From contig DRGL01000053.1 of the NCBI GenBank assembly GCA_011050085.1, positions 1 through 64,000 of the forward strand: a stretch of 64,000 nucleotides of DNA, in the 5' to 3' direction. Source of the DNA: Pricia antarctica. GTDB taxonomy: Bacteria; Bacteroidota; Bacteroidia; Flavobacteriales; Flavobacteriaceae. Below, one piece after another: positions 3,909 to 45,469 of this stretch. Within the stretch, counting starts at the first letter, position 1. The number at the start of each line of letters is the position of its first letter. Under the pieces are notes generated by a model. That model was not told where the DNA came from. It saw only the letters and a program-made list of their open reading frames with translations, and made no database searches. A program made the translations under genes and the position numbers.

Positions 3909-6044
3909 CTAGTATTCGATACTTTTTAAATAACGCAATTCTTCGTCATTTAGTTCCTTAGAAACGGTTTCAATGCGTTTTTTATAATCCTCATCCGTAA
4001 GTAATTCTTTCAATAGGTCTCTGGCAAACTTCTTGAATTGCCACACAGGATGGTCAGTCGCGCGAATCAAGTTTTTTAGGCTTAGGTCAGTTAGTCCGAA
4101 AGCTTCCTTCAGATAAAAGAAAGCGGATTGGCGAATGGTATAGCTATAGGCGCCATCTGTGTAGCTATCCAGTTCGTCAAAATACATCTTGGTATTCTTT
4201 CCGTTATAATCCGGTGTCAACATGGCCAAGGTCAACCATAGTAGACGAACGTTTTTGCTTGGCAAACCAATGATATCTGCTGTATTGTCCAAATAGTTTT
4301 TTCGATCTTGGGGATAGGTTTCCCAAAGTTTAAAAAGTGCATTCTCGACAGTAACATAGCTCTTGTCCGTCAATAGTGATTCAAAGGCAAGCTTATTGTA
4401 TTTTTTGACATCTGAAGCATTTGAGAGCATTTGTCGAATAGGGACCGTGTCACTAGCAAAAGCCAGTTGTATTATGTCGTCAGGAATAGTTTTTTCATAT
4501 TTTTCAAGGATATGTTTTTTAAGATGGATGGATGGGCTTCCGTTCCAATAATGAACATAATCGACTTTGTAGTGCGTTTTTTTATAATCCCCTTCCATCT
4601 CGAGATTTAATTGTAATGAAGGCGAGTGCCTTTTGAGCGTTTTGATGGCTTCATCATAAGGTAATTCTGTAGCAACCAACCAATCCTCTTTGAAATCGGA
4701 TAGACTGCTGCCGGAAGCCTTTTCCATCTCGCTCAAAAAGTCAGGTACCGTTACCGTTGCAAATCGGTATTTTTTCAAATAAGATTCAATGCCCTTGTGA
4801 AAAGCCGTATCCCCTACCTGTTCCCGAAGCATAAAAAGAGCCCAAGCCCCTTTCTCGTAAAATGTTAGACTACTTGCTTTCGGATTTAGTAGACTTTCCC
4901 CTTTACCTTGTTCGGCCATCTCTAAAAGTTGGTTCAAAGTCCCGTATAGCTTCCAAAAAAAATGGTCTTTACCGAAAAGTTCTTTTTCGGCGAGATATGC
5001 ATAATAGGTCGCAAATCCCTCATGAAGCCAATGGTGGTTTCCATTTTTTTCGGTCACCATATTTCCGAACCATTGGTGTGCCAGTTCATGCGCTCCGACA
5101 TTTATATAATTGGCATCTACAAAAGCGGTGGAATCAATAACATAACCATCCGAAAAGATGGTAGTACCTGTATTTTCCATTCCCGCATACAGGAAGTCGT
5201 GAACTGGTATCTGTTTATAGTTCTGCCAAGGATACGGAATGCCTATTTCACCTTCCAAAAAATCAAAAATCCTTTTGCTGTAGCGGTAAGTAGGCTCAAC
5301 CCTAAGGCTATCTTCCGGATAGTAGTAATTATAAATGGGAATACCGCTTTTAGACACAAGCTCTTGATTATCATAGGTGCCAATTACGAATGCCAAAAGG
5401 TAGCTGCTCATGGGTTGCTGCATATCAAAATGCCAAGTTTTGGTGCCGTCGTTATTAGTTGTATCGGATGTTAATTCTCCATTGGCAATTACTTCATATT
5501 GGGCATCGAATCTAATGTTCAGGTCGAACTCTACCTTTTCTTGCATGTCATCAAAACTGGGAAGCCAGTGGCTGGAATACTTGCCTTGGCCCTGTGTCCA
5601 AACTTGTTTATGATTAGCAACTATTTGCTTAGCGGGAGATTCCTGCGTATTTGTCAATGGAGTTTTTTGTTTGTTTATCCCATCAACGTTCCATCCTAAA
5701 AAGTAAACGGTTTGTTTTGGTGTACAGCTATAGACCAATTTCAGCTTATGCATCTTGCCCTTCTTGAAATTTTTGCTGATGGATATTCTATTGCCCGAAT
5801 TGGAAAATGCCACTTCCCTATCATTCAAGCGCACCAAAGAGAAATCCATATCATGGGCATCCAAAAAAACGGAATCGACATCCTGTAAAACCTTAAATTC
5901 ATACGTGACGGTGCCCTCGATACGTTTTTCGTTGGTGATGGGCTCGATAGCAATGTCTCCACGAACAAAATCTATCTTATCTTGATATTGTGCGGTTGCA
6001 AAAAGACATTTCAGTATGACAAGTAATAAAATCAACGATTTCAT
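3909..6044 (-). CDS. M1 family metallopeptidase (aminopeptidase N-like), exported
   Basis: This 711-residue protein starts with a signal peptide (hydrophobic run ending in ATAQ). The zinc site is intact: HELAHQW at about residues 317-323 with the third ligand glutamate in WLHEGFATYYA, eighteen residues after the second histidine. The exopeptidase motif GMEN occurs upstream in YAGMENTGT. The N-terminal beta-rich region and the C-terminal helical part fit the size of exported Bacteroidetes M1 enzymes. It would remove N-terminal amino acids from peptides in the periplasm. It lies 13 bases upstream of the patatin gene on the same strand, and diverges from recG across about 120 bases. Confidence 0.9.
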   Translation of the reverse strand: MKSLILLLVILKCLFATAQYQDKIDFVRGDIAIEPITNEKRIEGTVTYEFKVLQDVDSVFLDAHDMDFSLVRLNDREVAFSNSGNRISISKNFKKGKMHKLKLVYSCTPKQTVYFLGWNVDGINKQKTPLTNTQESPAKQIVANHKQVWTQGQGKYSSHWLPSFDDMQEKVEFDLNIRFDAQYEVIANGELTSDTTNNDGTKTWHFDMQQPMSSYLLAFVIGTYDNQELVSKSGIPIYNYYYPEDSLRVEPTYRYSKRIFDFLEGEIGIPYPWQNYKQIPVHDFLYAGMENTGTTIFSDGYVIDSTAFVDANYINVGAHELAHQWFGNMVTEKNGNHHWLHEGFATYYAYLAEKELFGKDHFFWKLYGTLNQLLEMAEQGKGESLLNPKASSLTFYEKGAWALFMLREQVGDTAFHKGIESYLKKYRFATVTVPDFLSEMEKASGSSLSDFKEDWLVATELPYDEAIKTLKRHSPSLQLNLEMEGDYKKTHYKVDYVHYWNGSPSIHLKKHILEKYEKTIPDDIIQLAFASDTVPIRQMLSNASDVKKYNKLAFESLLTDKSYVTVENALFKLWETYPQDRKNYLDNTADIIGLPSKNVRLLWLTLAMLTPDYNGKNTKMYFDELDSYTDGAYSYTIRQSAFFYLKEAFGLTDLSLKNLIRATDHPVWQFKKFARDLLKELLTDEDYKKRIETVSKELNDEELRYLKSIEY

Positions 6045-6123: not shown

Positions 6124-6131
6124 TAGTTTTG
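6124..6131 (+). promoter_or_regulatory. Candidate -7 promoter box of recG
   Basis: The octamer TAGTTTTG matches the Bacteroidetes -7 consensus TAnnTTTG exactly. A TTTG occurs at 6091-6094, but its 29-base distance is longer than the usual 19-21, so the -33 element is uncertain. Transcription from here would start near 6137 and support ATG 6165 as the recG start. Confidence 0.45.
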
Positions 6132-6164
6132 CAGTGTGCCTACCGAACTCCGATTTTTAGCTCG

Positions 6165-8270
6165 ATGAATGCCAATTTACTACAGACCCCAATTGTTTAT
6201 CTTAAGGGCGTAGGCCCGAACCGGGCCGAAACCCTTCAGTCGGAACTGGGTATTCAGACGTTTCAAGACCTGCTCAATCTTTTCCCCTTTCGCTATATTG
6301 ATAAAACCCAATATTATAAAATTGCACAGCTCCAACGTAGCAATGCCGATGTGCAATTACTCGGTAAAGTGATTCACATTAAAACTATAGAACAGAAGAA
6401 GGGGAAACGCCTGGTCGCGACTTTCGTTGACGACACCGGGGAAATGGAACTAGTGTGGTTCAGGGGCCAAAAGTGGATTAGGGAGAATCTCAGGTTGAAC
6501 ACCCCCTACGTCATCTTTGGGAAATGCAATTGGTACAATGGCCAAGTCTCGATGCCCCATCCTGAAATGGAACTGCTGAGCGAACACGAAAAGGGACTTA
6601 AAATCGCAATGCAGCCCGTCTACCCTTCCACCGAAAAACTGTGTAATAAAGGCATTACCAATCGGGTCATCAACAAACTGATGCAACAGCTTTTCATGGA
6701 AACCAAAGGTAAGTTTTCTGAAAGCCTCTCCCCTACGCTTTTAGACGAATTAAAACTGCTATCTAAGAGCGAGGCGATGTTCAACGTTCATTTTCCAAAA
6801 AATCAGGAACTTTTGGCCAAGGCACAATTCCGTTTAAAATTCGAAGAACTTTTTTATGTGCAACTGCAGCTACTTTCCAAAAAAATGCAGCGAAAGCAAA
6901 AAATCAAAGGCTATACCTTCGATCAGGTGGGTGCATTGTTCAACGCCTTTTATACAGAGCACCTACCCTTCGAATTAACGGATGCGCAGAAACGGGTAAT
7001 TAGGGAAATACGGTACGATATGGGCAGTAACGCCCAAATGAACCGTTTGCTTCAGGGGGATGTAGGCTCAGGGAAGACGATTGTGGCCGTAATGACCATG
7101 TTACTTGCGATTGATAACGGCTTTCAAGCCTGTTTAATGGCGCCAACGGAAATTTTGGCAAATCAGCATTATAGCGGAATCCGTGAACTTTTAAAAGAAA
7201 CAGGGGTTACTTGCGCCTTATTGACCGGCTCGGTGAAAAAAAAGGCCCGCCGGCCCATACACGAACAGCTAGAGAATGGTGAACTACAGATTTTAATAGG
7301 TACTCATGCCTTGCTGGAAGACAAGGTACAATACAAGAATTTGGGTTTGGCCATCATAGACGAACAGCACCGCTTCGGAGTGGCACAGCGTTCACGGCTT
7401 TGGCATAAAAATGATTTTCCGCCACACGTTTTGGTAATGACCGCCACGCCTATTCCCCGTACCTTGGCCATGAGCCTTTATGGTGATTTGGATATTTCGG
7501 TAATTGATGAACTTCCGCCAGGCCGTAAACCAATTACGACCGTGCACCGCTATGATTCAAATCGGTTAAAAGTATTCCGCTTCATACGGGACGAAATTAA
7601 AAAAGGACGGCAAATTTACATCGTTTATCCCTTGATTCAGGAATCTGAAGCCATGGACTATAAAGATTTGATGGACGGCTACGAAAGCATCGTTAGGGAT
7701 TTTCCCTTACCCGATTACCAAATTTCCATCGTGCATGGGCAAATGAAGCCTGCGGACAAAGAGTACGAAATGCAACGATTTGTAAAAGGCGAAACCCAGA
7801 TTATGGTCGCCACCACAGTAATTGAAGTGGGAGTCAACGTACCGAATGCCTCCGTCATGATCATTGAAAGTGCAGAGCGTTTTGGATTGTCTCAGTTACA
7901 CCAGCTTCGGGGGCGTGTAGGACGAGGAGCGGAACAGAGCTATAACATTCTAATGACCAGTCACAAACTCTCCGCAGAGGCCAAAACCCGCTTGGAAACC
8001 ATGGTACGCACCAACGATGGCTTTGAAATAGCTGAAGTAGATTTACGCCTCCGCGGGCCGGGCAACCTAATGGGTACGCAACAGAGTGGTGTGCTGAATT
8101 TAAAGATTGCCGATATTGTGAAGGATAACGATATATTGAAAACTGCACGATATTATGCCATTAAATTATTGAACGAAGATCCCGGTTTGGAACATCCTGA
8201 TAATTTGGTCGTAAGGCATGCCTATGGGCAGTTGGTCAAGTATAAAAATATTTGGAATTATATAAGTTGA
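6165..8270 (+). CDS. recG: ATP-dependent DNA helicase RecG
   Basis: RecG remodels stalled replication forks and branch-migrates Holliday junctions. The protein has the N-terminal wedge/OB domain (start LLQTPIVYLKGVGPNRAE) and two helicase domains. Walker A GDVGSGKT is at about residue 298, the DEQH box (IIDEQHRFG) at about 398, the TATPIPRT motif follows, and the C-terminal domain has HQLRGRVGR. ATG 6165 is preferred over the in-frame TTG at 6129 because the family begins close to the NLLQTP motif and because a promoter-like box overlaps the TTG. This gives 701 residues, normal for Bacteroidetes RecG. It is transcribed alone and ends at a hairpin shared with the convergent lipoprotein gene. 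Confidence 0.95.
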   Translation: MNANLLQTPIVYLKGVGPNRAETLQSELGIQTFQDLLNLFPFRYIDKTQYYKIAQLQRSNADVQLLGKVIHIKTIEQKKGKRLVATFVDDTGEMELVWFRGQKWIRENLRLNTPYVIFGKCNWYNGQVSMPHPEMELLSEHEKGLKIAMQPVYPSTEKLCNKGITNRVINKLMQQLFMETKGKFSESLSPTLLDELKLLSKSEAMFNVHFPKNQELLAKAQFRLKFEELFYVQLQLLSKKMQRKQKIKGYTFDQVGALFNAFYTEHLPFELTDAQKRVIREIRYDMGSNAQMNRLLQGDVGSGKTIVAVMTMLLAIDNGFQACLMAPTEILANQHYSGIRELLKETGVTCALLTGSVKKKARRPIHEQLENGELQILIGTHALLEDKVQYKNLGLAIIDEQHRFGVAQRSRLWHKNDFPPHVLVMTATPIPRTLAMSLYGDLDISVIDELPPGRKPITTVHRYDSNRLKVFRFIRDEIKKGRQIYIVYPLIQESEAMDYKDLMDGYESIVRDFPLPDYQISIVHGQMKPADKEYEMQRFVKGETQIMVATTVIEVGVNVPNASVMIIESAERFGLSQLHQLRGRVGRGAEQSYNILMTSHKLSAEAKTRLETMVRTNDGFEIAEVDLRLRGPGNLMGTQQSGVLNLKIADIVKDNDILKTARYYAIKLLNEDPGLEHPDNLVVRHAYGQLVKYKNIWNYIS

Positions 8271-8442: not shown

Positions 8443-9570
8443 TCAATTCGATTTTTCGGAAAAAGATTTGAATTCGTCGTCGGCTATGCCGTCTCCATCG
8501 TAATCGCTTTTGTTTATGCGAATTAGGGTCGTGCCGTCAAGCTGGATAAGGCTATCAATAAGAAGAATACCTTCGCCGGCCTCAAAGCTTCTTGTTTCTG
8601 ACTCCCCATTTTCTATACGTACTTGATCATAAAAGATTAAGCTCAATCTTGATTCCGTTTCATTGAAGGCCCAAAAACCTTCGAAGCTTTCCGCAAACTC
8701 ATAATCATCGTTAAAAATGGGTTCGCACTCGAGGGACGAGGCCTCATAATTCAAGTCGTTGCGAATTATTTTATATTCATAAGTAAAAGCTCCGTCTGCA
8801 GTCAACGTAAAACTAATAGATTCGGTGATAATACAGCTGTCGAATTTCAACTCTTGAACTTGGCAAGGAAGGGATAGTTCATTGCAGTCATTCTCTCCGA
8901 CCAAAACTGTTTCTGTCACCCCTTCTTCGGTATGTTCCGTTTTTGTGAAGTCCCATGTACCGACCAAATCGACATTTCCGCCCCAGTTCTCTACCGTGCC
9001 ACATACCTCTTCGGGCGCACTGATGTTACCATTACCATCATAAACGCAAACTAGGTAACAAAACGTGCCTGGTTCAACGGTGCTGTTGAAATCAACATCT
9101 AATATAAATTCGTTGTCATTTTTGGCGGTTTGCGCGGTCGCATTCCCAGAAAAAAATCCGTATGCCTTTTGTAGGTCCACCGCTTTTTTCGACAGGCCGT
9201 TAGCCGAAAGATCGATATCATAATAGCTCTTTGAAACAGCACCGTCTTTATCCTTAAATTGTAAATAGGCACCAATGACATCAGAGTCGGAACTCAACCT
9301 TACTTCGAAACCCTCGTTCAAAAAGGCAGCTTTACCGCTATCGCCGATATCGAGCGATATCATTTCGTTAGGGGTCGGGGGCATTCCCTCTTCTTTGGTG
9401 CCGCCCTTGATTATAACGTTGTCGGATACTGTATCGGCCGCCAAGGGGATGGTTTCCTGATTTACGACCTGTGGCCCTATTTCTTCGGACATAGAAGAAC
9501 TATAGTCTTTTCCGCAGGAAGCTATAATTACTAGTGCCGCCGTAGCGACAATTCTAAAAATAATTTTCAT
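8443..9570 (-). CDS. Hypothetical exported lipoprotein
   Basis: This is a 375-residue lipoprotein: a basic N-terminus, a hydrophobic segment and the lipobox IASC with Cys19. The mature part is acidic and probably beta-rich, with several cysteines (for example FCYLVCVYDG and CNELSLPCQ) that could form disulfides. The segment VGTWDFTKTE near residue 205 is like the start of lipocalin-type domains common in flavobacterial lipoproteins. The C-terminus carries DYDGDGIADDE, an EF-hand-like calcium loop. The function is unknown. It is transcribed alone and converges on recG. Confidence 0.65.
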   Translation of the reverse strand: MKIIFRIVATAALVIIASCGKDYSSSMSEEIGPQVVNQETIPLAADTVSDNVIIKGGTKEEGMPPTPNEMISLDIGDSGKAAFLNEGFEVRLSSDSDVIGAYLQFKDKDGAVSKSYYDIDLSANGLSKKAVDLQKAYGFFSGNATAQTAKNDNEFILDVDFNSTVEPGTFCYLVCVYDGNGNISAPEEVCGTVENWGGNVDLVGTWDFTKTEHTEEGVTETVLVGENDCNELSLPCQVQELKFDSCIITESISFTLTADGAFTYEYKIIRNDLNYEASSLECEPIFNDDYEFAESFEGFWAFNETESRLSLIFYDQVRIENGESETRSFEAGEGILLIDSLIQLDGTTLIRINKSDYDGDGIADDEFKSFSEKSN

Positions 9571-9957: not shown

Positions 9958-12858
9958 TCAATCCTGAATATTGTAACCTACTCCTAAAAATGGATTAATG
10001 TTGTACGGACTTCCAATGCTGTTAATTATTCCGACTTGCGTTTGCGATGTAGGTACTATTTCGCTATGGCGACCAAAAAAATAGACTACACCGCTGGGGG
10101 GCATTACGAAACTATCTTCATCTTCATCTAGAAATGTATAACCTTCATCCAGTCCGTTCCAACTTGTGTTTAGTCTTATGAATTCGTTTCCTGTTTCACC
10201 GCCGCCGGAATTTGCTTTGAGACTTGCGCTGCCCTTACCACCACCTGTCGAGGTAATCTTTACGGTAACCAATGACCCCGCTGGAGCACTATAGCGGCCG
10301 GTCACTTTATTAAAAGGCGACACATTGATTGTAATTGTATCAGTTGAGACAAATTGACCATCGGATACAGTCAGCTTCACAGTATAGGTACCCGTAACTT
10401 CAAAATCGTGAGAAGGATTTCTTTGGCTGGAAGTCATTTCATCGCCAAAATCCCAAGCATAGCTTAATGTATCTCCATCCGGATCGCTAGATCCGCTACC
10501 ATTAAATTGCACGGTTAAGATATTGGGTCCGCTCGTCTTATCCGAAGAAACTACGGCCAATGGTTGCCGATTCGGCACCTCAACGGTAATATTGAGGGAG
10601 ACTTCATCGGTCAATCCACCGGCATCGGTTACCCGTAGTATGGCCATATACCTATTCGCGACCGTGTATACATGTTGGGGATTGGCGGCGCTAGATGTAT
10701 TGCCGTCACCAAAATCCCAAGCATAAGACACGATGCCAGCATCGTCATAAGAAGAATTTCCAGTAAAATTTACCGTATTACCGGTAACTACCGTTGTCGG
10801 AGCAGCATTGGCAACTGCAGTTGGTTTTTGATTGGGTACTTCAATCTGAACTGAAGCTGTATCTGTTAGTCCACCATCGTCGGTCACCGTAAGCATTACC
10901 GTGAAATCACCGTGAACAGCATATTTATGAACAGGATTAGACAACGAACTCGTATTTCCATCACCAAAATCCCAAGTATACTTTATAATTTGTATGTCGT
11001 CAGTAGACGAACTTCCCGTGAAATTAATGTTCTCATCAATACCTGCAATAGGTTTACTTGCACTCGCTTCTGCCGTAGGTTTATCACCCTCGATTATTAC
11101 GGATGCGGTGTAGGCATTTTGGGTACCATTCTCCGCAGTCACCGTAAAGACAACCGCATTTGTGAAATCAATGGCCGTTTCAGAAAGTGGGTCGATTGAT
11201 GCCCCAGTGTGAACGATACTTGGTGAAAGGGATTTTTCATCGTTTCCAGAGGGAAGCGTTAACGATATATTTCTTTGGCTGAAAACACCGGATACACCTG
11301 CAATTTCAAAGTTTGTAATATCCTTTTCATTACTTTTCTCAATTACTACGGTAACGGTATACTCCAGAGTGCTGCCATCTTCGGCAGTAACGGTATACAC
11401 TATTGGATTTGTAAAGTCTACTGTAGTTCCATTTTGGGGACTTAAGCCAGACCCTGTGAATTGAACTGTCGGGGTTAGGGATTTAGCATTGGAGCCCGCC
11501 GGAAGCGTTAGGGAAATATTCGTTCCGGATATAGTGCCAGCTACCCCCAATATTGTCAAGGCTTCAATTGATTTATCTGTGCTCTCCGCTATAGTAACAA
11601 TCACCCTCCAATCTTGTCTGTCACCATTTTCGGCTGTAACCGTATACGTCACGGGTTTTCTAAAATCTTGTGATTCCGTTGGAGAAGGCGAAATATTGGC
11701 ATTGGGGGAAACATTGAGTGTGAGTGGCGCTGTCTGGGTTTCCGTACCAGAGGAAACATAGACCGTAATCGTATGACCAATCTCATCAATTTCGGCCGTT
11801 TCTATTTGACCAGGAATAGCAAAAGCCAAAATATCATTTTCAGGACTTAGCGGATTTTCTCCTGCGATGACCTTTACCGTTCTCACCATCTCAATAGCTG
11901 TGTTGCCAGATGCATCACTGACAATAAAATATACAGCATAGCTTCCCTCCTTCAACACATCAACCTCGGAGGCATCTATAACTATATCTTCGGAAATATC
12001 ACCGTCTACATCGTCCAGAGCTGTAGCTCCAGGATCATTATAAACAGAACCCAGCTGAAGGGTAAATGGATTATTGCCTAGTAAAGTAATTTCAGGAATT
12101 ACCCTATCGACAATATCCTCTAATACTTCGAAACTAATAACGACAGTATATGCTTCGCCCTCATCTCCTTTTAAATCGAAGGATAGTTCGGTAACTCCTA
12201 ATTCAAGGGGCGTAAATTCTAGGGTATACGTGCCCGGAAGAATCGGTGAAAATTCGGAATAATCTACTACGGATTCTGGTTCTGCGGATTTAGTATTAAA
12301 CGTTCCCGAACCAGATATCGGATAATAACGCCGAACATAAGTAACATCGGGATTGGCTTCTGATTTTTCAAAATTTACTGTTATTTGTACGCTGTTGCCC
12401 AACTCCACCCGTTTGACCGAACTTGCGGCCGTCCATACCAAAGGAGGAATCTTAGCCAAAGTGTACTCAATTTCTACATCTTTTGTAAATCCATAGTTAT
12501 CAGTTGCCGTAATCTTTACTACATGGTTTCCTGATTCAGAGCCCACATACATCATCGTTGCGGATAAAGGATTCAGCGGAATCTTTTCGCCTTGCGGAAA
12601 TATTTCTCCTAACCTGTTTTGAAAGTAACCCGAACCTTTTGTTATCAAGTAAGAATACGAATATTTGAATTCTTCAAGTATTTCTTCTGGAACCACCGTG
12701 ATTTTCGTCGTTAGATTCTGATTTACGAATCCACTGGATTCATGTTGCTCAGTTAAGGTGAATTCCACTTCGGTCTTGAGTCCAATTTCTTTGGTACAGG
12801 CCAAAATTATAATTAAGGTCAAAAAAATAAAAGAAGTAAATCGAACAATATTTTTCAT
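9958..12858 (-). CDS. TraQ-like multidomain lipoprotein with PKD repeats
   Basis: This 966-residue lipoprotein has a lipobox cysteine at residue 21. In order, it holds two tandem modules resembling conjugal TraQ/DUF3872 (about 25-130 with LITKGSGYFQN, and 133-245 with YPISGSGTFNT), one DUF5011-type Ig-like domain (about 251-330, PGATALDDVDGD), and three DUF5018-like repeats (about 341-590, each with a Y-T-V-T-A-E-[ND]-G motif). Three PKD domains follow (about 596, 681 and 766, with WDFGDGNTSS or WDFGDEMTSS), then a unique 110-residue tail. It is probably surface-exposed and adhesive or structural. It lies downstream of traO, but a hairpin in the 287-base gap suggests separate transcription. 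The TraQ-like assignment is by pattern only. Confidence 0.7.
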   Translation of the reverse strand: MKNIVRFTSFIFLTLIIILACTKEIGLKTEVEFTLTEQHESSGFVNQNLTTKITVVPEEILEEFKYSYSYLITKGSGYFQNRLGEIFPQGEKIPLNPLSATMMYVGSESGNHVVKITATDNYGFTKDVEIEYTLAKIPPLVWTAASSVKRVELGNSVQITVNFEKSEANPDVTYVRRYYPISGSGTFNTKSAEPESVVDYSEFSPILPGTYTLEFTPLELGVTELSFDLKGDEGEAYTVVISFEVLEDIVDRVIPEITLLGNNPFTLQLGSVYNDPGATALDDVDGDISEDIVIDASEVDVLKEGSYAVYFIVSDASGNTAIEMVRTVKVIAGENPLSPENDILAFAIPGQIETAEIDEIGHTITVYVSSGTETQTAPLTLNVSPNANISPSPTESQDFRKPVTYTVTAENGDRQDWRVIVTIAESTDKSIEALTILGVAGTISGTNISLTLPAGSNAKSLTPTVQFTGSGLSPQNGTTVDFTNPIVYTVTAEDGSTLEYTVTVVIEKSNEKDITNFEIAGVSGVFSQRNISLTLPSGNDEKSLSPSIVHTGASIDPLSETAIDFTNAVVFTVTAENGTQNAYTASVIIEGDKPTAEASASKPIAGIDENINFTGSSSTDDIQIIKYTWDFGDGNTSSLSNPVHKYAVHGDFTVMLTVTDDGGLTDTASVQIEVPNQKPTAVANAAPTTVVTGNTVNFTGNSSYDDAGIVSYAWDFGDGNTSSAANPQHVYTVANRYMAILRVTDAGGLTDEVSLNITVEVPNRQPLAVVSSDKTSGPNILTVQFNGSGSSDPDGDTLSYAWDFGDEMTSSQRNPSHDFEVTGTYTVKLTVSDGQFVSTDTITINVSPFNKVTGRYSAPAGSLVTVKITSTGGGKGSASLKANSGGGETGNEFIRLNTSWNGLDEGYTFLDEDEDSFVMPPSGVVYFFGRHSEIVPTSQTQVGIINSIGSPYNINPFLGVGYNIQD

Positions 12859-13118
12859 CGGTTTGCCTATCGGAGTTCTAATTTAGAACCGATGCAATCA
12901 CTATTTAGTACGGATTTAGGTTGAAGTACTTGCTTTTTGGATTATCGTAACATTTGAAAAACTACCTTGAACAAAATTAGGAATCCAAGAAAATTTTCAA
13001 AATACCTTTTTTACTCCCAATCTTACTTTTAGTTTTTTTGAAATTCACTCATATTGGGCATAACGGAATATTCAATGGAAATAGTCGAATCAAAATCTAA
13101 GATTATCCAATTCGCTAA

Positions 13119-13139
13119 AAGAGCCTTCCTCAGGCTCTT
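13119..13139 (-). terminator. Hairpin terminator after traN-traO
   Basis: An 8-bp stem (AAGAGCCT at 13119-13126, AGGCTCTT at 13132-13139) with a 5-base loop is followed on the minus strand by a run of T. It lies just after the traO stop and separates traNO from the PKD lipoprotein gene. Confidence 0.65.
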
Positions 13140-13145
13140 ATGCCT

Positions 13146-13685
13146 TTACAGGTTAAAGTAATAGCGGAGTCCAAGCCCAGAGAAATTGGTCAACTTACCA
13201 AAATCACTATTGACATGATAAAACTGGGAAGATTTAATGATGAGGGAAGAATGTTCGGTCAAAATTATATCTACCTCGACGGTTGCGACACCTCCATAGA
13301 TAAACTTGCTAGCACCGTCAAGGAATACTACGTTTGAAATATCGCTATTACCATTATTTACTAATTCGTATCCTGCAATAGCTCCTCCCCCTACACTGAG
13401 GGATTGCATCTTTCGTTTTCTGCTGTAAACGTTTAGAAAATAAGAATAAGATGCGGTAAAGCTTGAATACGGGATAGTTGTTTCCCCTGACCTGAAATTG
13501 GCTATACAAACATCAAGGGCAATTTGCGTAAAGGTGTTTTCGCTCAAGTTAGCGTTATAGCTAATTTCACCACCATAGCCTTTGCCGAAAATACCAACAT
13601 TCATCGAAAAAGTATTGGAGTAACTTTGCGAAATGGCAGTTAATGGCAAAAGAAATACGATGAGAAAAAAAGCCTGTAATTTCAA
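13146..13685 (-). CDS. traO: TraO-like outer-membrane protein of Bacteroidetes conjugation systems
   Basis: This 179-residue protein has a signal peptide ending near TAISQ and a beta-rich mature part ending in LGLRYYFNL. Such an aromatic C-terminus is typical of small outer-membrane beta-barrels. The succession GKGYGGEISY, TASYSYFLN, GYELVNNG, SKFIYGGVATVEVDIILTE and GLGLRYYF resembles CTnDOT-type TraO, where the same landmarks (YSFF, GYE, FIYG, LT) occur in the same order and at similar length. TraO is a component of the mating apparatus of Bacteroidetes conjugative transposons. Its start overlaps the traN stop by four bases, so translation is probably coupled. No tra genes beyond traN and a TraQ-like gene are near. 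Confidence 0.7.
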   Translation of the reverse strand: MKLQAFFLIVFLLPLTAISQSYSNTFSMNVGIFGKGYGGEISYNANLSENTFTQIALDVCIANFRSGETTIPYSSFTASYSYFLNVYSRKRKMQSLSVGGGAIAGYELVNNGNSDISNVVFLDGASKFIYGGVATVEVDIILTEHSSLIIKSSQFYHVNSDFGKLTNFSGLGLRYYFNL

Positions 13686-14731
13686 TTGGTCGGGGCGTTA
13701 ATTTGTTTATTATCCAACGGTAACAAAACCATTCTATTGTTTTCCAATTCATCCAAAACAACGAATATCCTTTCCTTATTTGAAATGGTAAAACGTTTGA
13801 ATACAAAGACTACTTCGTTGATACTTTGTGGGTCTATTTTATCTTGAAGGTTATAGGTATAAAGTGGTTTCATAATCTTTTGAAGTTGGCCGACCCCAGA
13901 TTTTCTAAAAAAACTCAATCCGTTGACCTGATATTCTTTTTTCGAATTATTTTCAATTTGAAGTACAAAAAATACCTCGCTACGATCTACCAAAATATTA
14001 TTCAGTTTTAGGACTATATTTTTATTTTGACGAAAAGTACGCCTGACCAATGTTTTTTGTAAGTAATTATTTTCGCAAAATATGCGGAAATATTCTTCCC
14101 TGTCAATACTATAGAGGTCGTCCTCTACCTCTATTTTCATAGATTCGCTACTATTGTCTGAAAAGTATGATTCATTGGCATCTGAGACGTCTTGAAATTT
14201 TCGGACACTTTTTTTGTTTTGATTCCGAGAAGTAATACCCGCATGTGAATCCCCTTGTGAGGCATCCAACTTCATTGACGATTTCTCCGATGCAAATGGC
14301 GGATTACTATCGTTCCTTAGGTAAGATGCATCCAAAATTTTGACGGTATCAATTCTCTTATTTAATTTTAATTGATGGCTAGGTATGCGCCCAATGGACG
14401 TTCCATTGTCCAAAATGAAATTAAAATTATCTATGTTCTCGGAATACTTTAAAATAAAGGAATAGATGTAACCATCTTCAGTGATGACCGTGAGATTACT
14501 TTGACTTCCCTTTTCCCCCTTAATCAAACCTATGCTAGGGGCATCTTCGTAATATTCAAACGTATAGTTAGCTGTTGGAGGAATTGTTTTGGAAATAGCG
14601 GACGGGAAAAAAATAGTAATGGTAGAGTGCTCATTGGCCATAATCGAAACGGGCATCGCTTTTTGCTCTTGCGCAAAAACACCGAAACAGATATAAAAAT
14701 GCAGTAGAAGTATAGTGAAGTAGGTCTTCAT
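13682..14731 (-). CDS. traN: TraN-like (DUF4138) conjugal transfer protein
   Basis: This protein of about 349 residues has a signal peptide. ATG 14731 is chosen over the upstream in-frame ATG 14746 because MKTYFTILLLHF gives a better signal sequence. The N-terminal part (SIMANEHSTITIFFPS, then LTVITEDGYIYSFILKYS) and the C-terminal part (VLKLNNILVDRSEVFFVLQI, then NNSKKEYQVNGLSFFRK and PQSINEVVFVFKRFTI) follow the two-block plan of TraN from Bacteroides conjugative transposons. The middle (about 120-200) is low-complexity and variable. TraN is an envelope protein of the mating channel. It is the first gene of a two-gene traN-traO unit. Retention outside a conjugative element is unusual. Confidence 0.7.
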   Translation of the reverse strand: MKTYFTILLLHFYICFGVFAQEQKAMPVSIMANEHSTITIFFPSAISKTIPPTANYTFEYYEDAPSIGLIKGEKGSQSNLTVITEDGYIYSFILKYSENIDNFNFILDNGTSIGRIPSHQLKLNKRIDTVKILDASYLRNDSNPPFASEKSSMKLDASQGDSHAGITSRNQNKKSVRKFQDVSDANESYFSDNSSESMKIEVEDDLYSIDREEYFRIFCENNYLQKTLVRRTFRQNKNIVLKLNNILVDRSEVFFVLQIENNSKKEYQVNGLSFFRKSGVGQLQKIMKPLYTYNLQDKIDPQSINEVVFVFKRFTISNKERIFVVLDELENNRMVLLPLDNKQINAPTN

Positions 14732-14960
14732 AACTTTGCAGAACAACGGGTATTTATAGTATTTGCGGTAAAATATCTTACGTGTATAGAATGGAAAAAA
14801 CTATTCATTATTGCTCACGCTAGTTGAATGGAAGAAGTAATCGGTGATTTGATAGGGTTCAAATTTTCACCAAACCCCATAGAACTATCTCAAAGTTGAA
14901 TTTAAGGTGTAAATGTTATGATTAACACTCGATGAGTCATCGGAACATTTCATGAAAAAA

Positions 14961-15004
14961 GGGATTTGTTTTCTCTCGAGTCGACCCGCTAGAAAATAAA
15001 TCCC
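14961..15004 (-). terminator. Hairpin terminator after tssC
   Basis: Arms of 14 bases (14961-14974 and 14991-15004) pair with one mismatch around a 16-base loop. On the minus strand the stem is followed directly by six T. The site lies 57 bases after the tssC stop and closes the tssBC unit before traN. Confidence 0.7.
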
Positions 15005-15060
15005 ATTTGCATCTTAATGCATAATGCTTACAGAAAATACATGTTCACAATATGAGATAT

Positions 15061-16419
15061 TTACGCTTGTTCGTATTTAGTATCCCAATCCGTACCTTCA
15101 TCTCCTTTTTGGCCATCCATTTTGATTAAAAAGTTTTTAGCTGGGAAATACGGTTTTAGACGGATATCCATATAAATACGGTCTTTTTGATTTTGATCTT
15201 GCTCAAATCTTCGAATTTCGAAATTTTCGATCAATTTGTCCGGTCCAGTAATATCATCTAGAAAGCGTACAATCTGTGCTTGTATTTCATTTCTTGTTTT
15301 AGTGTTGAAATTCTCAAATGCTCTTCGGTTCAAGAAATCCATTAAAACTTTTGATACATAATCAAACACACGTACAACGGAATAAGTCTGCAGGCCTAAA
15401 TTATCACCATTAAAAAGCGTCTTGGCAGAAAAGGCCATAACCTTACCGTATTCGTTCACCATCGGAACGAGTCCGAGATTCTCTAAATTTGCGATTTCAC
15501 TTTTCCTCAAATCAAAACGCACGCCATCGACTTCACTAAGACCACCATGTTTCTTGCCAGCAGTTACCTGTGACATTAAGGTCTTATATATTTTACCGGC
15601 CAATGCTCCCGATGGTGGTACATGTATATCGTCTTCTTCTCCAATATCTTCGTGTTTACCACGGCCGACCAACCAATTGCAGGTCATCACTGTATTTGAT
15701 AGATAGGTGTCGCTACTAGCTAGATTTGCGCTATCGAACATTTCCATGACATCATCCGGCTCGTCTAAATGTGCAAAATCGGTTATTAATGTGACCTTAT
15801 TGTCATAAGCGATTTTAGCCCATTTATCTACAACGGATTTTGAACCTAAATATCCCGGTAGAACCAAAAGACCATAATTTTCCCGAAGGTCTAAGCGGTC
15901 GTACTTATCAATTAGCTCTTCACGAATATGATCAATAAATCGCGTATTGTCCAAATCGGAAAGCTGCTCTAGCTCTGCGTTCATTATAGATACATTCTTA
16001 ATGGACTCCATATCGGTATTCTTATAGAAAAGTGCTACCGAACGGTATGAAGTTTCAAGTTCACGTGTATCTTTCAGCGCCGACCTAAGGTTTTTGATAA
16101 GCACTTTTTGTGACTCCTGTGCCTTATCATCTGCGGCCTGAACCAAACTGATAATATCGTCACCCGATTTCAGGATTTCTGACCAAAGTTCCAAGGTTTT
16201 CAGTAAGCCGGATCGTTCTTCCTTTTTACTATTTTCCGAGAGAAACATTTTTCGCCTCGCCTTTCGATCAGGATTTAAATTCTGCACTCCTTCGATGGCG
16301 GATTCTAAAAGATCATACCCCCCGTATTTCACGAACTCCTCGGATTTTAATTTTATCTGGTCCGAGTAAGGCTTATCGCTGAATTGTGCGGTTTGCTGTG
16401 TAGTCTGTGCGTTTGCCAT
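15061..16419 (-). CDS. tssC: Type VI secretion contractile sheath large subunit TssC (Bacteroidetes type)
   Basis: TssC and TssB co-polymerise into the contractile sheath that drives the T6SS inner tube. The 452-residue protein has the landmark segments of Bacteroidetes TssC (DUF5458 type): NLNPDRKARRKMFL, ELETSYRSVALFYKNT, LRENYGLLVLPGYLGS, TDFAHLDEPDDVMEMF, SGALAGKIYKTLMSQVTAGK, VMAFSAKTLFNGDNLGLQTY and PYFPAKNFLIKMDGQKGD. The length is normal and no breaks are seen. It lies six bases after tssB. No baseplate (tssEFGK), tube (Hcp), spike (VgrG), ClpV or TssNOPQR gene is found nearby, so the pair is isolated within the window. Confidence 0.9.
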   Translation of the reverse strand: MANAQTTQQTAQFSDKPYSDQIKLKSEEFVKYGGYDLLESAIEGVQNLNPDRKARRKMFLSENSKKEERSGLLKTLELWSEILKSGDDIISLVQAADDKAQESQKVLIKNLRSALKDTRELETSYRSVALFYKNTDMESIKNVSIMNAELEQLSDLDNTRFIDHIREELIDKYDRLDLRENYGLLVLPGYLGSKSVVDKWAKIAYDNKVTLITDFAHLDEPDDVMEMFDSANLASSDTYLSNTVMTCNWLVGRGKHEDIGEEDDIHVPPSGALAGKIYKTLMSQVTAGKKHGGLSEVDGVRFDLRKSEIANLENLGLVPMVNEYGKVMAFSAKTLFNGDNLGLQTYSVVRVFDYVSKVLMDFLNRRAFENFNTKTRNEIQAQIVRFLDDITGPDKLIENFEIRRFEQDQNQKDRIYMDIRLKPYFPAKNFLIKMDGQKGDEGTDWDTKYEQA

Positions 16420-16425
16420 GATAGC

Positions 16426-16878
16426 TTATTTGTTGGTTTTAATTTCTTCGATTAGGGCATCAATAGTATCTACTAAAGATTTTTTAGCCTCAGCATCTTC
16501 AAGCGCGGCTTTCAAAATTTTATTAGTTTTCAATTGCTTAATGATATTCCTGTACTGATCGCTTTCAATTTCCAGTTCCTTTAAAAAAGAACTACTACTG
16601 ATAATCCCTTTTTTACCGAAATCACCAAGCGTGTTAAACCTAATAGTCTCGTTTACTGTACCTCCATTTTTATCCTCAAAGGGAATCTTTAACTCTGGTT
16701 CAAAATGTTCAAAAACATCGTCTACTGTTCGTAGCCCTTCGACAACTTCGGGTTTGACCGGAGCGTTTGGAGTCAATTTCCCCGCGATAAGAGTTCTATT
16801 CTGTGGAATATCATTTAGGGCTTCGTTCGCATCCCCTCTCACTTCGGTTCCCCCAATACCTACGCTGTTAATGGCCAT
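16426..16878 (-). CDS. tssB: Type VI secretion contractile sheath small subunit TssB
   Basis: This 150-residue protein has the hallmark TssB segment ALNDIPQNRTLIAGKL, followed by TPNAPVKPEVVEGLRTVDDV and FEHFEPELKIPFED. The last third is helical (SDQYRNIIKQLKTNKILKAA). It pairs with TssC in the sheath wall. The length agrees with Bacteroidetes TssB. It is the first gene of a tssB-tssC unit with a six-base spacer, preceded by a 730-base gene-free stretch. Confidence 0.9.
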   Translation of the reverse strand: MAINSVGIGGTEVRGDANEALNDIPQNRTLIAGKLTPNAPVKPEVVEGLRTVDDVFEHFEPELKIPFEDKNGGTVNETIRFNTLGDFGKKGIISSSSFLKELEIESDQYRNIIKQLKTNKILKAALEDAEAKKSLVDTIDALIEEIKTNK

Positions 16879-17669: not shown

Positions 17670-20054
17670 CTAAAATTTCCACCATTTCTTTTGGGTTTTA
17701 CCATAGCCGTATCCATATTTACCGCCATAGCCCAAATTGGAAGCGTCAACATCATTAACCACAAATGATAGGCCTTTTATCTTCCCTTCTTCTTGAAGTT
17801 TGATAGGATAATTTACAGCTTTGGTTTCTGTCACTCCAGCTCTGGTAACATAAATCAATAAATCTGCATAATCACTTATTAACAACGTATCGGTTACAAC
17901 CATTAAAGGCGCGGTATCGACAATAACATAATCATAGATTTCAGAAACATTTTCGAAAAGTTCCTTAATACGATTACTCATTAGTAGCTCAGCAGGATTA
18001 GGAGGTATGCGACCTGAATAAATCACATCGATGGTGTTGTGATGGATCATCATAGGATTTACAATATCCCTTACCTCAATCGTATTGTCATATAGATATT
18101 CCGTAAGACCGGCATCTTTATTTCGGGCGGGTTTCGCCATCTTATCGACATCATTTCCAGTAAAAAAGGTATACAACTTTGGATTTCTAATATCAGCTCC
18201 TATCAATAATACCTTTTTGTTAGTACTCGCCAATATCATGGAGAGGTTAGTTGATAAAAAAGTCTTTCCTTCACCGGGTACGCTTGAGGTTACATATACA
18301 ATATTGCTCTTTCCCGGCTTAGATTGTTTGGATTTTATTAAATAATCAAGATTAGTGCGGATAATACGAAGGGATTCCGCAAGCACGGAACGGTCTTCTT
18401 TGACCACAAATTTGTTCTCTTTTTTGGTCAATTTTGGAAGCTCACCAAGAATTGGCGTATTCTGTACCAATTTTTCAAGGGAATTCATATTGTGAACCTT
18501 ATTATCTAATAGATCATGCGCATATATAATTGAGAAGGGCAACAACAACCCTAAAATGAAAGACGCTAAGTAGATTAAAGATTTTTTAGGTGAAACAGGT
18601 AATTTACTTACTGCATACGCTCTGTCAATAATATTGGACTTGGGTGAGCTTGACGCGGCGCTGATTTGCGCTTCTTCTCTTTTCTGAAGAAGGTAAAGAT
18701 AAAGTGATTCCGTAGTTTGTTGCTGACGAGTTATATCGCGTAAAGCTCTTTCTTTTGCAGGCGAAGAATAAATTTTTGAATTAAAACGAGCCTGTTGACC
18801 ACTTAATGAAGATACAGTCATACCTAAGGTTTTAACACTATTATTCAAACTCTGCTGCATGCTTCGCTTTAACCCAGCAATCTGTTGATCGAGATTAATG
18901 ATAACCGGGTTCTTCTCGTTTGAGCTTTTCAATAATCTTTGACGTTCTTGTACTAACTGATTATACCTATCCGTGGTCCCGGCAATGGTAGGGTCTGCTA
19001 GGCCTATATTTGTAGGCAATACTTCATAAGTATCTTGGCTTGCAACTAAATCTTGCATCGAAGAAGCCATATTTAACTGATTTCTGGCATTGGCCAATTC
19101 TTGTTGGTTAGCTACCCCAACATTAAGATTCACATTTGCTTCAGCTTGAATATCGGATACCCCGGCTTCAGTTTTGAAATCTTGTGCTGATTGGTCCACA
19201 CTAGAAAGATCAGTGGAAATATCGGCAATTCTCTCGTTGATAAAATTTGAAGTTCGATCTGCAATCTCCTGTTTATCTTCAATTGCATTTTTATTATATA
19301 TCCTAACTACTGCATCCAAGATTTTGGTGGCTTTTTCACGTATTGGATCTTCTAATAATAAGTTAACAATGTTAGAAAATTCTCCCGGGTTTGTAATTTT
19401 GACCCTTGTTCTATAACTTTGTGCTACATCCTCAATCGGATTAACTGAAATTCGCAATTTTTTATTCTTATAATTCTCGAAAACCTGAACATTTGGTGTA
19501 ATTACTATATCACCTATTGGTGTAGGAATGTTTTTCCCAAAAGCATAAATTTTAACTGGCTTATCCTCCTCTTCAGTATATCCAAAAGTTGTTGACGATG
19601 AAATTGTAATAAAAAATTGAAAATTTGATTTATTAACAATCGAATCGGCCGAAATAAAGTTTAGATTAACGGGCGGATTCGTATAAAGTTCAGTTTCGAT
19701 TATATTTCCTTGTACCATTATTTTGGTATTTAGATTGAGGTCTCGAACTACCTGAATAAAGTTAGAACGGCTATTTACAATTTGTAATTCATCTTCTACC
19801 TTGTTTTTTCCACCACCCAAGAAATCTAAATCTTGAAACACATCAAGTTCAGAACCCGAGGATTTATCCTCTAAAATTTGTATTTGAGTTTGAACGGCAT
19901 AATTTGGGGTGGCATATCGGATATACAAATATGCAAGGCCTAAAGCAATTATAGCACAAATAACAAACCATTTCCAATGGTTTAAATATCTAGCAATAAT
20001 TTCTTTTAAATCAATCGAATTACTATGCTTCGGATTTTGAGAAGTATTACTCAT
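17670..20054 (-). CDS. wzc: Wzc-type polysaccharide co-polymerase / BY-kinase
   Basis: Inner-membrane protein that sets chain length and couples Wzy polymerisation to export through Wza. The 794 residues hold an N-terminal Wzz domain between two membrane segments (about 30-50 and 490-515, the latter SLIYLASFILGLLLP), with a large periplasmic coiled-coil part. A cytoplasmic tyrosine-kinase domain follows, with Walker A VPGEGKT at about 590, Walker A' LLIGADIRNP and Walker B YVIVDTAP at about 710. The tail GYGGKYGYGYGKTQKKWWKF carries a tyrosine cluster that is probably autophosphorylated. It is the last gene of the unit, 36 bases after wza. Confidence 0.93.
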   Translation of the reverse strand: MSNTSQNPKHSNSIDLKEIIARYLNHWKWFVICAIIALGLAYLYIRYATPNYAVQTQIQILEDKSSGSELDVFQDLDFLGGGKNKVEDELQIVNSRSNFIQVVRDLNLNTKIMVQGNIIETELYTNPPVNLNFISADSIVNKSNFQFFITISSSTTFGYTEEEDKPVKIYAFGKNIPTPIGDIVITPNVQVFENYKNKKLRISVNPIEDVAQSYRTRVKITNPGEFSNIVNLLLEDPIREKATKILDAVVRIYNKNAIEDKQEIADRTSNFINERIADISTDLSSVDQSAQDFKTEAGVSDIQAEANVNLNVGVANQQELANARNQLNMASSMQDLVASQDTYEVLPTNIGLADPTIAGTTDRYNQLVQERQRLLKSSNEKNPVIINLDQQIAGLKRSMQQSLNNSVKTLGMTVSSLSGQQARFNSKIYSSPAKERALRDITRQQQTTESLYLYLLQKREEAQISAASSSPKSNIIDRAYAVSKLPVSPKKSLIYLASFILGLLLPFSIIYAHDLLDNKVHNMNSLEKLVQNTPILGELPKLTKKENKFVVKEDRSVLAESLRIIRTNLDYLIKSKQSKPGKSNIVYVTSSVPGEGKTFLSTNLSMILASTNKKVLLIGADIRNPKLYTFFTGNDVDKMAKPARNKDAGLTEYLYDNTIEVRDIVNPMMIHHNTIDVIYSGRIPPNPAELLMSNRIKELFENVSEIYDYVIVDTAPLMVVTDTLLISDYADLLIYVTRAGVTETKAVNYPIKLQEEGKIKGLSFVVNDVDASNLGYGGKYGYGYGKTQKKWWKF

Positions 20055-20090
20055 TGTCTCCTTTTAAATTACAATGTGAATAAAAAATTA

Positions 20091-20936
20091 TTATCTGTTA
20101 GTTCTTGTAATCAATAAAATTGTAGAAGTAATTAATAAGGACCCTATAGAAACAGCAATCGTAGTTCTTGAATCGAGTGATGAAGCAGTGATTGCGGATT
20201 TATTTGGTTCCACATAAACCACGTCATTTTGGGTAAGATAATAGACAGGAGAACTCATTGCTTCTTTACGTTTAAGGTTGATTCTGTGGTACACTTTAGT
20301 ACCGTCAAAATCTCTAATTACCATTATGTTTTCTCTTTTACCTTTGATTGTTAAGTCGTTAGCCAAACCGAGAGCTTCCAAAATAGTAATACGTTCACCA
20401 TTTACTGGATATGTACCAGGGCGGTTTACTTCCCCTAATACTGTAACTGTAAAATTACGTAGACGAATATTTATAATAGGATCTTTTAAATAATCCGAAA
20501 GTTCATCTCTAATAACTATTCTCAATTCTTCCGAGGAAAGTCCAGAAACTTTAATTTTTCCAATTACTGGAAAATCAATCTCCCCATCTTTATCTACTAA
20601 ATAATCTACTTGTTCCGCACTCAATGAACCAGCTCCTGCGTTGCTATCAGGTCCGGCTCGAAATAAATTAAAAGGTGCACTTGCTTGATTGTCTAAAGTA
20701 CTTACGTAAATACTAAGCACATCATCAACCTTAAATTTTGGTGTAAACGTGTTTTTGTCAACTAAAGTTTCAAAATCCCCAGTATTTTGAAAATAGACCA
20801 CATCTCTTTTTGTGGCGCATGAACTAAATAAAACAGCTATAACCATTATAAAAGCAATTTTTCTACCTATATAACCAATCTTATTCCTACTAATGTTATT
20901 CCTTTTGGATATCATAATTTCAATTTTTGCATACAA
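20091..20936 (-). CDS. wza: Wza-like polysaccharide export lipoprotein
   Basis: Outer-membrane secretin-like pore for capsule or exopolysaccharide. The 281-residue lipoprotein has its lipobox LFSSC with Cys40. An alternative ATG at 20915 would shorten the leader by seven residues and is equally plausible. After the Cys come the typical YFQNTGDF and DVLSIYVSTLD motifs of the Poly_export domain (about 60-150, ending VDKDGEIDFPVIGKIKVSGL). An SLBB domain follows (about 155-235, VTVLGEVNRPGTYPV). A single hydrophobic helix near the C-terminus (TTIAVSIGSLLITSTILLI) fits the membrane-spanning helix of Bacteroidetes Wza. It lies between capD and wzc in one transcription unit. Confidence 0.92.
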   Translation of the reverse strand: MYAKIEIMISKRNNISRNKIGYIGRKIAFIMVIAVLFSSCATKRDVVYFQNTGDFETLVDKNTFTPKFKVDDVLSIYVSTLDNQASAPFNLFRAGPDSNAGAGSLSAEQVDYLVDKDGEIDFPVIGKIKVSGLSSEELRIVIRDELSDYLKDPIINIRLRNFTVTVLGEVNRPGTYPVNGERITILEALGLANDLTIKGKRENIMVIRDFDGTKVYHRINLKRKEAMSSPVYYLTQNDVVYVEPNKSAITASSLDSRTTIAVSIGSLLITSTILLITRTNR

Positions 20937-21058
20937 TATTACTAAAAAATTACTCTAGAGTTCTTTAAATGATTAGCCTTTTCTGGCAAAGCAGAAAGGT
21001 AAATGTTTTGATAATTATGAAATAGAAAATTAAAAACCAATTTAAAACCTACTAAAAT

Positions 21059-22990: not shown

Positions 22991-22991
22991 T

Positions 22992-24170: not shown

Positions 24171-24451
24171 AAACTGGCTCCATGATTTGGGAAGGTAAAA
24201 TTACTTTCTATTGCGGTGGAAAACTATTTATTCGGGGAATATGCCCAAAAAATCGGTTAAAATACCACCTTGGTTTTCATACAGCCATAAATACGTAAAA
24301 AGGATGAAGAAAGATTGTTTTAGCTTTTAATGTATCGTCAGTAAAATACAAAATTACATAAATATCAGTATTTATTTTTCGTTATACCTTCTAAATCATA
24401 TACTTAAAAGCAAAAGAGCAAACTCTAAAGTCTGCCCATCCAAGGTGAAAA

Positions 24452-25438
24452 TTATTTTCGATTATACTTTTTAAAATCTTTATGCTCCTTCCGGTATAAC
24501 TCTTCCTCGGGAAGATTTTTAAAATACTCATAGGTTATCTTCATGCCATCGGCCCTAGTAACCTTTGGCTCCCAGCCCAAAAGTTTTTTAGCCTTTGAAA
24601 TATCGGGCTGACGCTGTAACGGATCATCTTTGGGTAAAGGCTTATAAATAATTTTTTGGTCGGTACCGGTTAGTTTTACAATTTCTTCAGCAAAATCCTT
24701 GATTGTAATTTCATGTGGATTCCCAATATTTACCGGTAAAGCGTAATCACTCAATAGTAATCTATATATTCCTTCAATTTCATCATCTACATAACAAAAT
24801 GATCGGGTCTGGTTACCATCGCCAAAAACGGTTAGGTCCTCACCCCTTAGAGCTTGACCTATAAATGCAGGGATGACCCGACCATCGTTTAAACGCATTC
24901 TTGGCCCATACGTATTAAAAATCCGAACGATACGTGTTTCCACTCCATGGAATCGATGATAAGCCATTGTAATAGATTCCATAAAACGTTTAGCTTCATC
25001 GTAGACACCCCTAGGACCTATGGTATTTACATTTCCGTAGTAATCTTCTGTTTGTGGATGCACCAAAGGATCTCCATAAATTTCTGAAGTTGAAGCGATT
25101 AGAATCCGCGCATTTTTTTCTTTTGCAAGGCCTAAAAGATTATGGGTTCCTAAAGCACCAACTTTTAAGGTCTGTATGGGAATTTTTAGGTAGTCAATCG
25201 GACTGGCTGGAGAAGCAAAATGCAAAATGTAATCAAGTTTTCCAGGTACGGTAACAAATTTAGTTACATCGTGGTGGTAAAACTCAAAATTCGGGAGCTT
25301 AAAGAGATGGTCTAAGTTGCGTAAATCACCAGTTATAAGATTATCCATGGCTATTACATGGTACTTCTCCTTTATAAAACGGTCGCAAAGATGGGATCCT
25401 AAAAATCCTGCAGCTCCAGTAATCAATATTCGTTTCAA
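24452..25438 (-). CDS. uxs: UDP-glucuronate decarboxylase (UDP-xylose synthase)
   Basis: Extended short-chain dehydrogenase of 328 residues: NAD motif GAAGFLG at 8-14, the catalytic STSEIYGDP and YDEAK (about 145). The sequence [13 protein letters not shown] and the [17 protein letters not shown] block are diagnostic of the UXS group rather than of UDP-glucose epimerases. The reaction is UDP-GlcA to UDP-xylose plus CO2, through a 4-keto intermediate. The substrate would come from the divergently transcribed UDP-glucose dehydrogenase gene 351 bases away. The protein is soluble, of normal length, and lies upstream of degT on the same strand. Confidence 0.9.
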
Positions 25439-45421: not shown

Positions 45422-45444
45422 TTTTCATATAATTTTAGATTTTC

Positions 45445-45469
45445 AAAGCGGAGGTTCCACCTCTGCTTT
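45445..45469 (+). terminator. Hairpin terminator after the lyase-like gene
   Basis: An 11-bp stem (AAAGCGGAGGT with ACCTCTGCTTT, one G:T pair) closes a three-base loop, followed by only a weak T run. Confidence 0.6.

Follow-up and report, generated by a model that had tools for sequence, protein, structure and literature searches.

A traN-traO-traQ envelope module linked to a subtype iii type VI secretion system in marine Flavobacteriaceae

We analysed a 64,000-nucleotide stretch of Pricia antarctica DNA (the window), in which the contractile sheath genes tssB and tssC lie beside relatives of the conjugation genes traN, traO and traQ. The data are best read as linking a conjugation-derived envelope module to a type VI secretion system of subtype iii (T6SSiii), the adjacency being meaningful. 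On this best reading, the three-protein module derives from, or shares ancestry with, the outer-membrane part of the Bacteroidetes conjugation (type IV) system and was co-opted once by one T6SSiii lineage. TraN, TraO and TraQ probably form or decorate the exit of the T6SS through the outer membrane. Specifically, the sequences suggest that the window holds a piece of a T6SSiii with a dedicated outer-membrane module, a TraN-TraO ring being the presumptive exit of the tube; we give this a probability of roughly 55%. The open literature, which leaves out most subscription papers, yielded no earlier description of a T6SS-linked TraNOQ module.

Gene organisation of the window

The coordinates and names that the preliminary description gave to the five genes of the block were confirmed. 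These genes and their surroundings are listed below.

16426-16878, minus strand: tssB, small sheath subunit, 150 aa, assigned by its position upstream of tssC
15061-16419, minus strand: tssC, large sheath subunit, 452 aa (PF17541, E 6.5e-235)
14961-15004, minus strand: candidate terminator hairpin 3' of tssC, arms GGGATTTATTTTCT / AGAAAACAAATCCC, read by eye
13682-14731, minus strand: T6-type traN (traN-like; PF13595/DUF4138, 51.1 bits against a cut-off of 31.1)
13146-13685, minus strand: T6-type traO (traO-like; PF10626, 69.5 bits)
13117-13139, minus strand: candidate terminator hairpin 3' of traO (AAGAGCC-TGAGGAA-GGCTCTT, then T), read by eye
9958-12858, minus strand: TraQ-domain surface-type lipoprotein, 966 aa (PF12988, 32.9 bits; PF16403, PF16410, PF18911)
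6129-8270, plus strand: recG, chromosomal neighbour outside the module (RecG domains)
3909-6044, minus strand: M1-family peptidase gene adjoining recG, context only (PF01433; cluster c24)

TssC scored 780 bits on PF17541, a profile of Bacteroidota type, against a cut-off of 25. TssB had no match in Pfam and none above the cut-off in NCBIfam; a TssB gene lay directly upstream of tssC at each of the 11 loci that the first search gave, TssR-bearing T6SSiii included, with identities of 41-87% across these loci (the window's own copy excluded). The start of traO and the stop of traN overlap by 4 bp. The TraQ lipoprotein has a lipobox with Cys-21 (LACTKEIGLKTEVEF) and a TraQ domain spanning roughly residues 9-132, which is followed by Ig-like, DUF5018 and PKD repeats.

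Neither candidate hairpin was listed by the terminator scanner, whose limit is exceeded by the loop of the tssC hairpin; the run TTTTTT at 14960-14955 directly follows this hairpin. As far as can be read from the sequence, the arrangement suggests that tssBC, traNO and traQ form three separate transcripts in the window. Since candidate terminators stand between them, co-transcription of the three units is unsupported here.

The remainder of the T6SSiii

The window copy of tssC is the only one in the genome (G000; 5.48 Mb, 84 contigs). Contig C34 carries TssG, TssN, TssK, TssO, ClpV, TssE, TssF, an NlpC/P60 protein and, at its edge, a PKD protein in the TssP position, which was assigned to TssP from this position, its PKD domains and its clustering with a 312-aa TssP adjoining tssR. 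Hcp is encoded on contigs C29 and C79 and VgrG on C36. The T6SSiii of the Pricia genome is complete, though divided into several pieces, of which tssBC is one; such loci are commonly split in Bacteroidota (PMC10781749). The picture of two incomplete machines, drawn from the window, was thereby overturned: the rest of the T6SSiii lies on these four contigs, and the Tra genes have paralogues in three conjugative elements of the same genome (see below). An orphan sheath without a machine was ruled out by the T6SS parts found elsewhere in the genome. We also rejected an extracellular or phage-type contractile system, on finding no complete particle cluster, a sheath of T6SSiii type and parts scattered as they are in T6SSiii.

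Recurrence of the block and co-occurrence with TssC

T6-type traN-traO(-traQ) was found in 18 distinct genomes, all of them marine Flavobacteriaceae (Pricia, Zobellia, Maribacter, Pseudozobellia, Cellulophaga and others). Thus, the neighbourhood is conserved, and chance adjacency, which the preliminary description had allowed for, is ruled out by the recurrence of the block. The usual gene order is tssP-hcp-tssB-tssC-hcp-cargo-traN-traO-traQ(1-4). In 15 of the 18 genomes, no more than about 10 kb separates the module from tssC; the linkage is lost in the other three. A scan of GTDB returned 13 loci, of which seven lay beyond the first set. They come from Pricia, Maribacter, Pseudozobellia, Zobellia, Cellulophaga and uncultured Flavobacteriaceae, and T6SS genes were present within 10 kb at 11 of the 13. 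An order-wide draw of 395 genomes contained no T6-type TraN beyond the known carriers.

Scores of the T6-type TraN profile over 397 genomes of the family were two-peaked: 11 genomes exceeded 200 bits, and no match listed for any other genome reached 100 bits. TssC, present in 44 of the 397 genomes, was found in all 11 carriers of T6-type TraN (hypergeometric 9e-12, a nominal value uncorrected for kinship). Because the carriers are related, the co-occurrence represents fewer than 11 independent events. T6-type TraO, searched for in the TssC-bearing genomes and three others, was found in exactly the same 11 genomes, adjoining TraN. In each of two genera, a congener that has no TssC is also without the module (G021 compared with carrier G420; G228 with carrier G394).

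The separate transcription units suggested for the window, together with the unlinking of the module from tssC in three genomes, would fit an independent envelope system, such as one for displaying lipoproteins or interfering with conjugation, whose site and lineage are common with the T6SS by history only. Such a system is very unlikely in the face of a module that occurs only where TssC is present, is lost with TssC in congeners and has a tree history shared with TssC.

Relation to conjugative elements

TraN of the window scored 54.6 bits on NCBIfam TIGR03780, the equivalog profile for conjugative TraN, below the curated cut-off of 164.1. The three conjugative elements found elsewhere in the genome (on C14, C74 and C84) contain TraM, TraN, TraO and a long TraQ. 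The window Tra genes are paralogues of these, with identities to them of about 24-31% for TraN and about 31-36% for TraO. The window genes are flanked by tssBC and by recG and the M1 peptidase gene, and TraN-TraO has no full transfer operon, with TraG, J, K, M and others, beside it. TraM, absent beside the module, is missing altogether from 4 of the 11 carrier genomes; therefore, the module is not a conjugative element of this type, and its tra-like genes are not confined to complete conjugative elements, a point that the preliminary description had singled out for checking. A whole conjugative element was excluded on the chromosomal flanks and the lack of TraM in several carriers.

Elements of the CTnDOT type have the same three families in the same order with overlapping traN and traO, and the conjugative TraQ of this genome is long, as is that of the window. 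They differ from the T6-type genes in that the latter form a clade of their own, with about 23-31% identity in TraN and no traM upstream, and in that the window lipoprotein combines one TraQ domain with Ig/PKD repeats. In Bacteroidales, the GA1 and GA2 T6SS loci reside on ICEs and are flanked by tra genes that include TraN and TraO (PMC4714493). Tra genes thus adjoin T6SS genes there as they do here; in GA1/GA2, however, they are the conjugation apparatus that moves the locus, whereas here only N, O and Q are present, at a chromosomal site by recG.

The GA1/GA2 precedent and the three conjugative elements of the genome both lend some credit to the idea that the module is a relic or hitch-hiker of a conjugative element on which the T6SS formerly resided, with no role in secretion. 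Several features make this improbable to a high degree. Only TraN, TraO and TraQ remain, in at least seven genera, with no TraG, J, K or M alongside, and they are retained even when unlinked from the T6SS. In traN, traO and the anchor part of traQ, divergence at third codon positions is about 2-4 times that at first and second positions, which indicates that the module genes are under purifying selection. T6-type TraN was not found on plasmids, where only conjugative-type TraN occurred (22-26% identity), and it groups in a single starred clade, separate from the sampled conjugative TraN, including TraN2, a second paralogue confined to carriers.

Genomic site and evolutionary history

In Pricia (the window included), Zobellia and related loci (L013, L110, L112, L128, L131, L136), the traQ end of the module is flanked by recG and the M1 peptidase gene. 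We take this site to be ancestral. Loci have split apart in Pricia, G420 and Pseudozobellia, and the module was kept each time: in Pricia, the main T6SS cluster moved off and left tssBC-traNOQ behind; in G420, it was tssBC that moved, with traNOQ staying in place. All 17 carriers fall together in the TssC tree, possibly with one long-branched non-carrier (G109) among them, and TssR-bearing systems make up a separate starred clade. TssC and TraN distances agree across the 17 genomes (Mantel r 0.71).

Predicted structures of TraN and TraO

AlphaFold2 was run on 11 sequences. TraN is a secreted protein of two beta domains, one N-terminal and one C-terminal, with a variable linker between them. 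Its model is moderate overall (pLDDT 63, pTM 0.37), the N-terminal domain being confident (residues ~24-115) and the C-terminal domain moderate. Chains of type IV core complexes made up the first seven Foldseek matches and the first eight VIA-align matches to the model; they comprise DotH, TrwF/VirB9, CagX and the X. citri and F-plasmid core complexes, with Z values of 8.5-9.6, while the first unrelated row reached 6.8. TraN is thus predicted to share the fold of VirB9, CagX and DotH; VirB9, TrwF, CagX and DotH are given as equivalents in a 2025 review (PMC12624023). The TraO model is an eight-stranded barrel (pTM 0.71) with OmpA, Ail and OmpW as best PDB matches, and the protein is predicted to be an outer-membrane beta-barrel. 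At the thresholds used, no PDB sequence relatives were found for TraN, TraO, the TraQ N-terminus, TssB or TssC, one TraN match being non-significant.

The module resembles the outer-membrane core of type IV systems (VirB7/9/10; TrwH/F/E; Cag; Dot/Icm) in its predicted VirB9-like fold and in the barrel and lipoprotein that accompany TraN. It differs in sitting with T6SS genes and in having no VirB10/TraM partner, ATPases, coupling protein or pilin. A VirB10 partner is part of Gram-negative type IV core complexes; its absence therefore speaks against a complete type IV-style core.

TssR and the T6SSiii membrane complex

In the T6SSiii membrane complex as known, the outer-membrane lipoprotein is TssR. 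Neither PF17643 nor a full-length profile built from six sequences found it in any of the 11 carriers, and neither revealed a divergent, hidden TssR. The gene order of TssR-bearing loci is tssG-N-K-O-small gene-P-R. Carrier loci have neither tssR nor the small gene between tssO and tssP, and an NlpC/P60 gene lies beside tssG.

About 29 other Flavobacteriaceae T6SS are without both TssR and the module. Hence the absence of TssR does not disqualify a system from T6SSiii membership; nor does it require the module, and a rule by which lack of TssR means TraNOQ was discarded on account of this second group. TraNOQ is a lineage-specific addition or replacement and not a general answer to the missing TssR. 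An NlpC/P60 protein is common to most of the examined T6SS that lack TssR and the module. A 1039-aa "NlpC" label in locus L158 proved to be a false cluster join.

The suggestion of a T6SSiii with an alternative envelope anchor was in part forestalled: the membrane complex of this subtype, TssNQOPR, was described in 2024 (PMC10781749), and TssN, TssO and TssP are present in the window genome. What stands is that TssR and the small tssO-tssP gene are missing. Similarly, the assembly is not of an undescribed kind, being a T6SSiii, but it carries an added or substituted outer-membrane module. Compared with the GA3 T6SSiii of Bacteroides fragilis, a TssNQOPR system (PMC10781749), the genome has TssB, TssC, Hcp, TssE, TssF, TssG, TssK, TssN, TssO, TssP, ClpV and VgrG in common; it differs in lacking TssR and the small gene, in having NlpC/P60 beside tssG and in the addition of traN-traO-traQ. 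TssR is missing in 31% of T6SSiii systems in the literature, with TssN and TssP near-ubiquitous; about a quarter to a third of systems, above all those of Flavobacteriales, have no tssO, tssQ and tssR or none that is recognised, and the authors who reported this suggest that such systems may have co-opted other genes (PMC10781749).

A possible outer-membrane exit and the variable TraQ lipoproteins

If TraN and TraO are the exit of the tube, TraN would form a periplasmic VirB9-like ring beneath the outer membrane, and TraO a small beta-barrel anchoring or completing this ring in the membrane. At least one TraQ lipoprotein would dock through its constant N-terminal domain and present a variable Ig/PKD stalk at the cell surface. 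The module would occupy the outer-membrane place of TssR above TssN-TssO-TssP, and would perhaps replace TssR. The Hcp/VgrG tube would gain a reinforced exit, and the TraQ ends might set the specificity of contact. The computed results are the recurrence and gene order of the block, its co-occurrence and common history with TssC, the lack of TssR, the predicted folds and the TraQ pattern of constant anchors and variable ends; from these we infer the physical association with the T6SS, the ring assembly, the replacement of TssR, the surface exposure and the adhesive role.

Carried to its full extent, this reading becomes a hybrid machine, put forward here only tentatively, in which a T6SSiii lineage swapped TssR for a type IV-type ring with interchangeable TraQ stalks that choose the cells contacted. 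If true, it would be, to our knowledge, the first T6SS to have borrowed its outer-membrane complex from a conjugation system, and would account in part for the missing TssR. For one lineage, the locus is a concrete, genetically testable candidate for co-opted genes; it may also be an instance of the outer-membrane part of one secretion machine being taken over by another. We know of no T6SS for which contact specificity is an established property; constant-anchor, variable-end TraQ proteins, if surface-exposed, would offer a route to it for a contact-dependent weapon.

TraN-TraO could instead be a surface accessory platform of the T6SS that is no channel and displays variable TraQ proteins, which hold or recognise neighbours before firing. 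The Ig/PKD/cadherin-like repeats of TraQ, the tandem arrays of up to four traQ genes whose anchors are almost identical and whose ends are unrelated, the missing VirB10 partner and the many T6SSiii that have neither TssR nor the module are all in keeping with such a platform. We consider it rather unlikely, since VirB9-type proteins are parts of channel rings in known systems and TraN and TraO are always both in the module.

The pattern of TraQ variation bears on the platform and on the tube exit that we favour. Tandem copies number two to four per locus (some arrays exceed the fetched stretch, so that the last copy may be cut), and are 54-100% identical over their first 240 residues and 12-42% over their last 200. 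The anchor motif ACTK-x-x-x-L-x-TEVEF is common to the TraQ lipoproteins, and CTK-TEVEF was found in 27 lipoproteins of the set.

TraN paralogues and TraQ lipoproteins

A second T6-type TraN paralogue, which stands without TraO or TraQ, was seen only in genomes carrying the T6-type traN-traO-traQ module that accompanies T6SSiii. The distance from tssC to this gene is roughly 18-40 kb in genomes G029, G240, G261, G394, G412 and G420. Positions in the loci fetched from the genomes compared are as follows:

L066 8999-9988 (genome G029), second T6-type TraN paralogue
L108 4228, L117 8379 and L118 7939, the same paralogue

On the 3′ side of traO, the TraQ lipoprotein genes occur in tandem, two to four per array, in loci L112, L132, L134, L137 and L139. 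The tandem lipoproteins, up to about 2000 aa long, have near-identical N-terminal anchors and unrelated C-terminal ends; possibly these genes form a variable surface array. The conjugative-element TraQ of the window's own genome far exceeds the single-domain family model (133 positions):

L027 10264-14244 (contig C74), TraQ of 1326 aa with three TraQ-domain stretches

The same genome contains five TraM loci of two kinds (contigs C14, C25, C30, C74 and C84) and so harbours several conjugative elements alongside its T6SS.

NlpC/P60 and TssC genes

T6SSiii loci without the outer-membrane lipoprotein TssR have an NlpC/P60 peptidase gene at a fixed place. The gene adjoins tssG in Pricia, Zobellia, Cellulophaga and TssR-less Flavobacterium-type loci, and its product may be a cell-wall-opening enzyme or a part of the membrane complex.

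L060 748-1383, NlpC/P60 peptidase gene

Genomes G109, G177 and G315 each have two different TssC genes, one copy of each pair being strongly divergent.

Candidate effectors

A variable cassette of small genes, probably encoding effectors and immunity proteins, lies between the second hcp and traN (L109, L110, L114, L015-L016). It comprises gene clusters c14, c20, c31, c33, c42, x412 and x146, of which x412 and x146 had no match in Pfam. A likely effector-immunity pair is formed by a phospholipase gene and the adjoining DUF2931 gene in a T6SS that is TssR-less and TraN-less:

L120 13137-15693, Tle1-like phospholipase gene, adjoining the DUF2931 gene and vgrG

Remainder of the window

Two further features were recorded in the window:

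8443-9570, putative lipoprotein of 375 aa, between recG and traQ
17670-27187 and 43508-56067, polysaccharide gene cluster, directly upstream of tssB

The putative lipoprotein matched no family, and its gene was not seen at the corresponding place in Pricia antarctica. The polysaccharide cluster encodes a Wzc-type kinase, a Wza-type export protein, a dehydratase, a LegC-type aminotransferase, a UDP-sugar dehydrogenase, an O-antigen ligase and an MBOAT protein.
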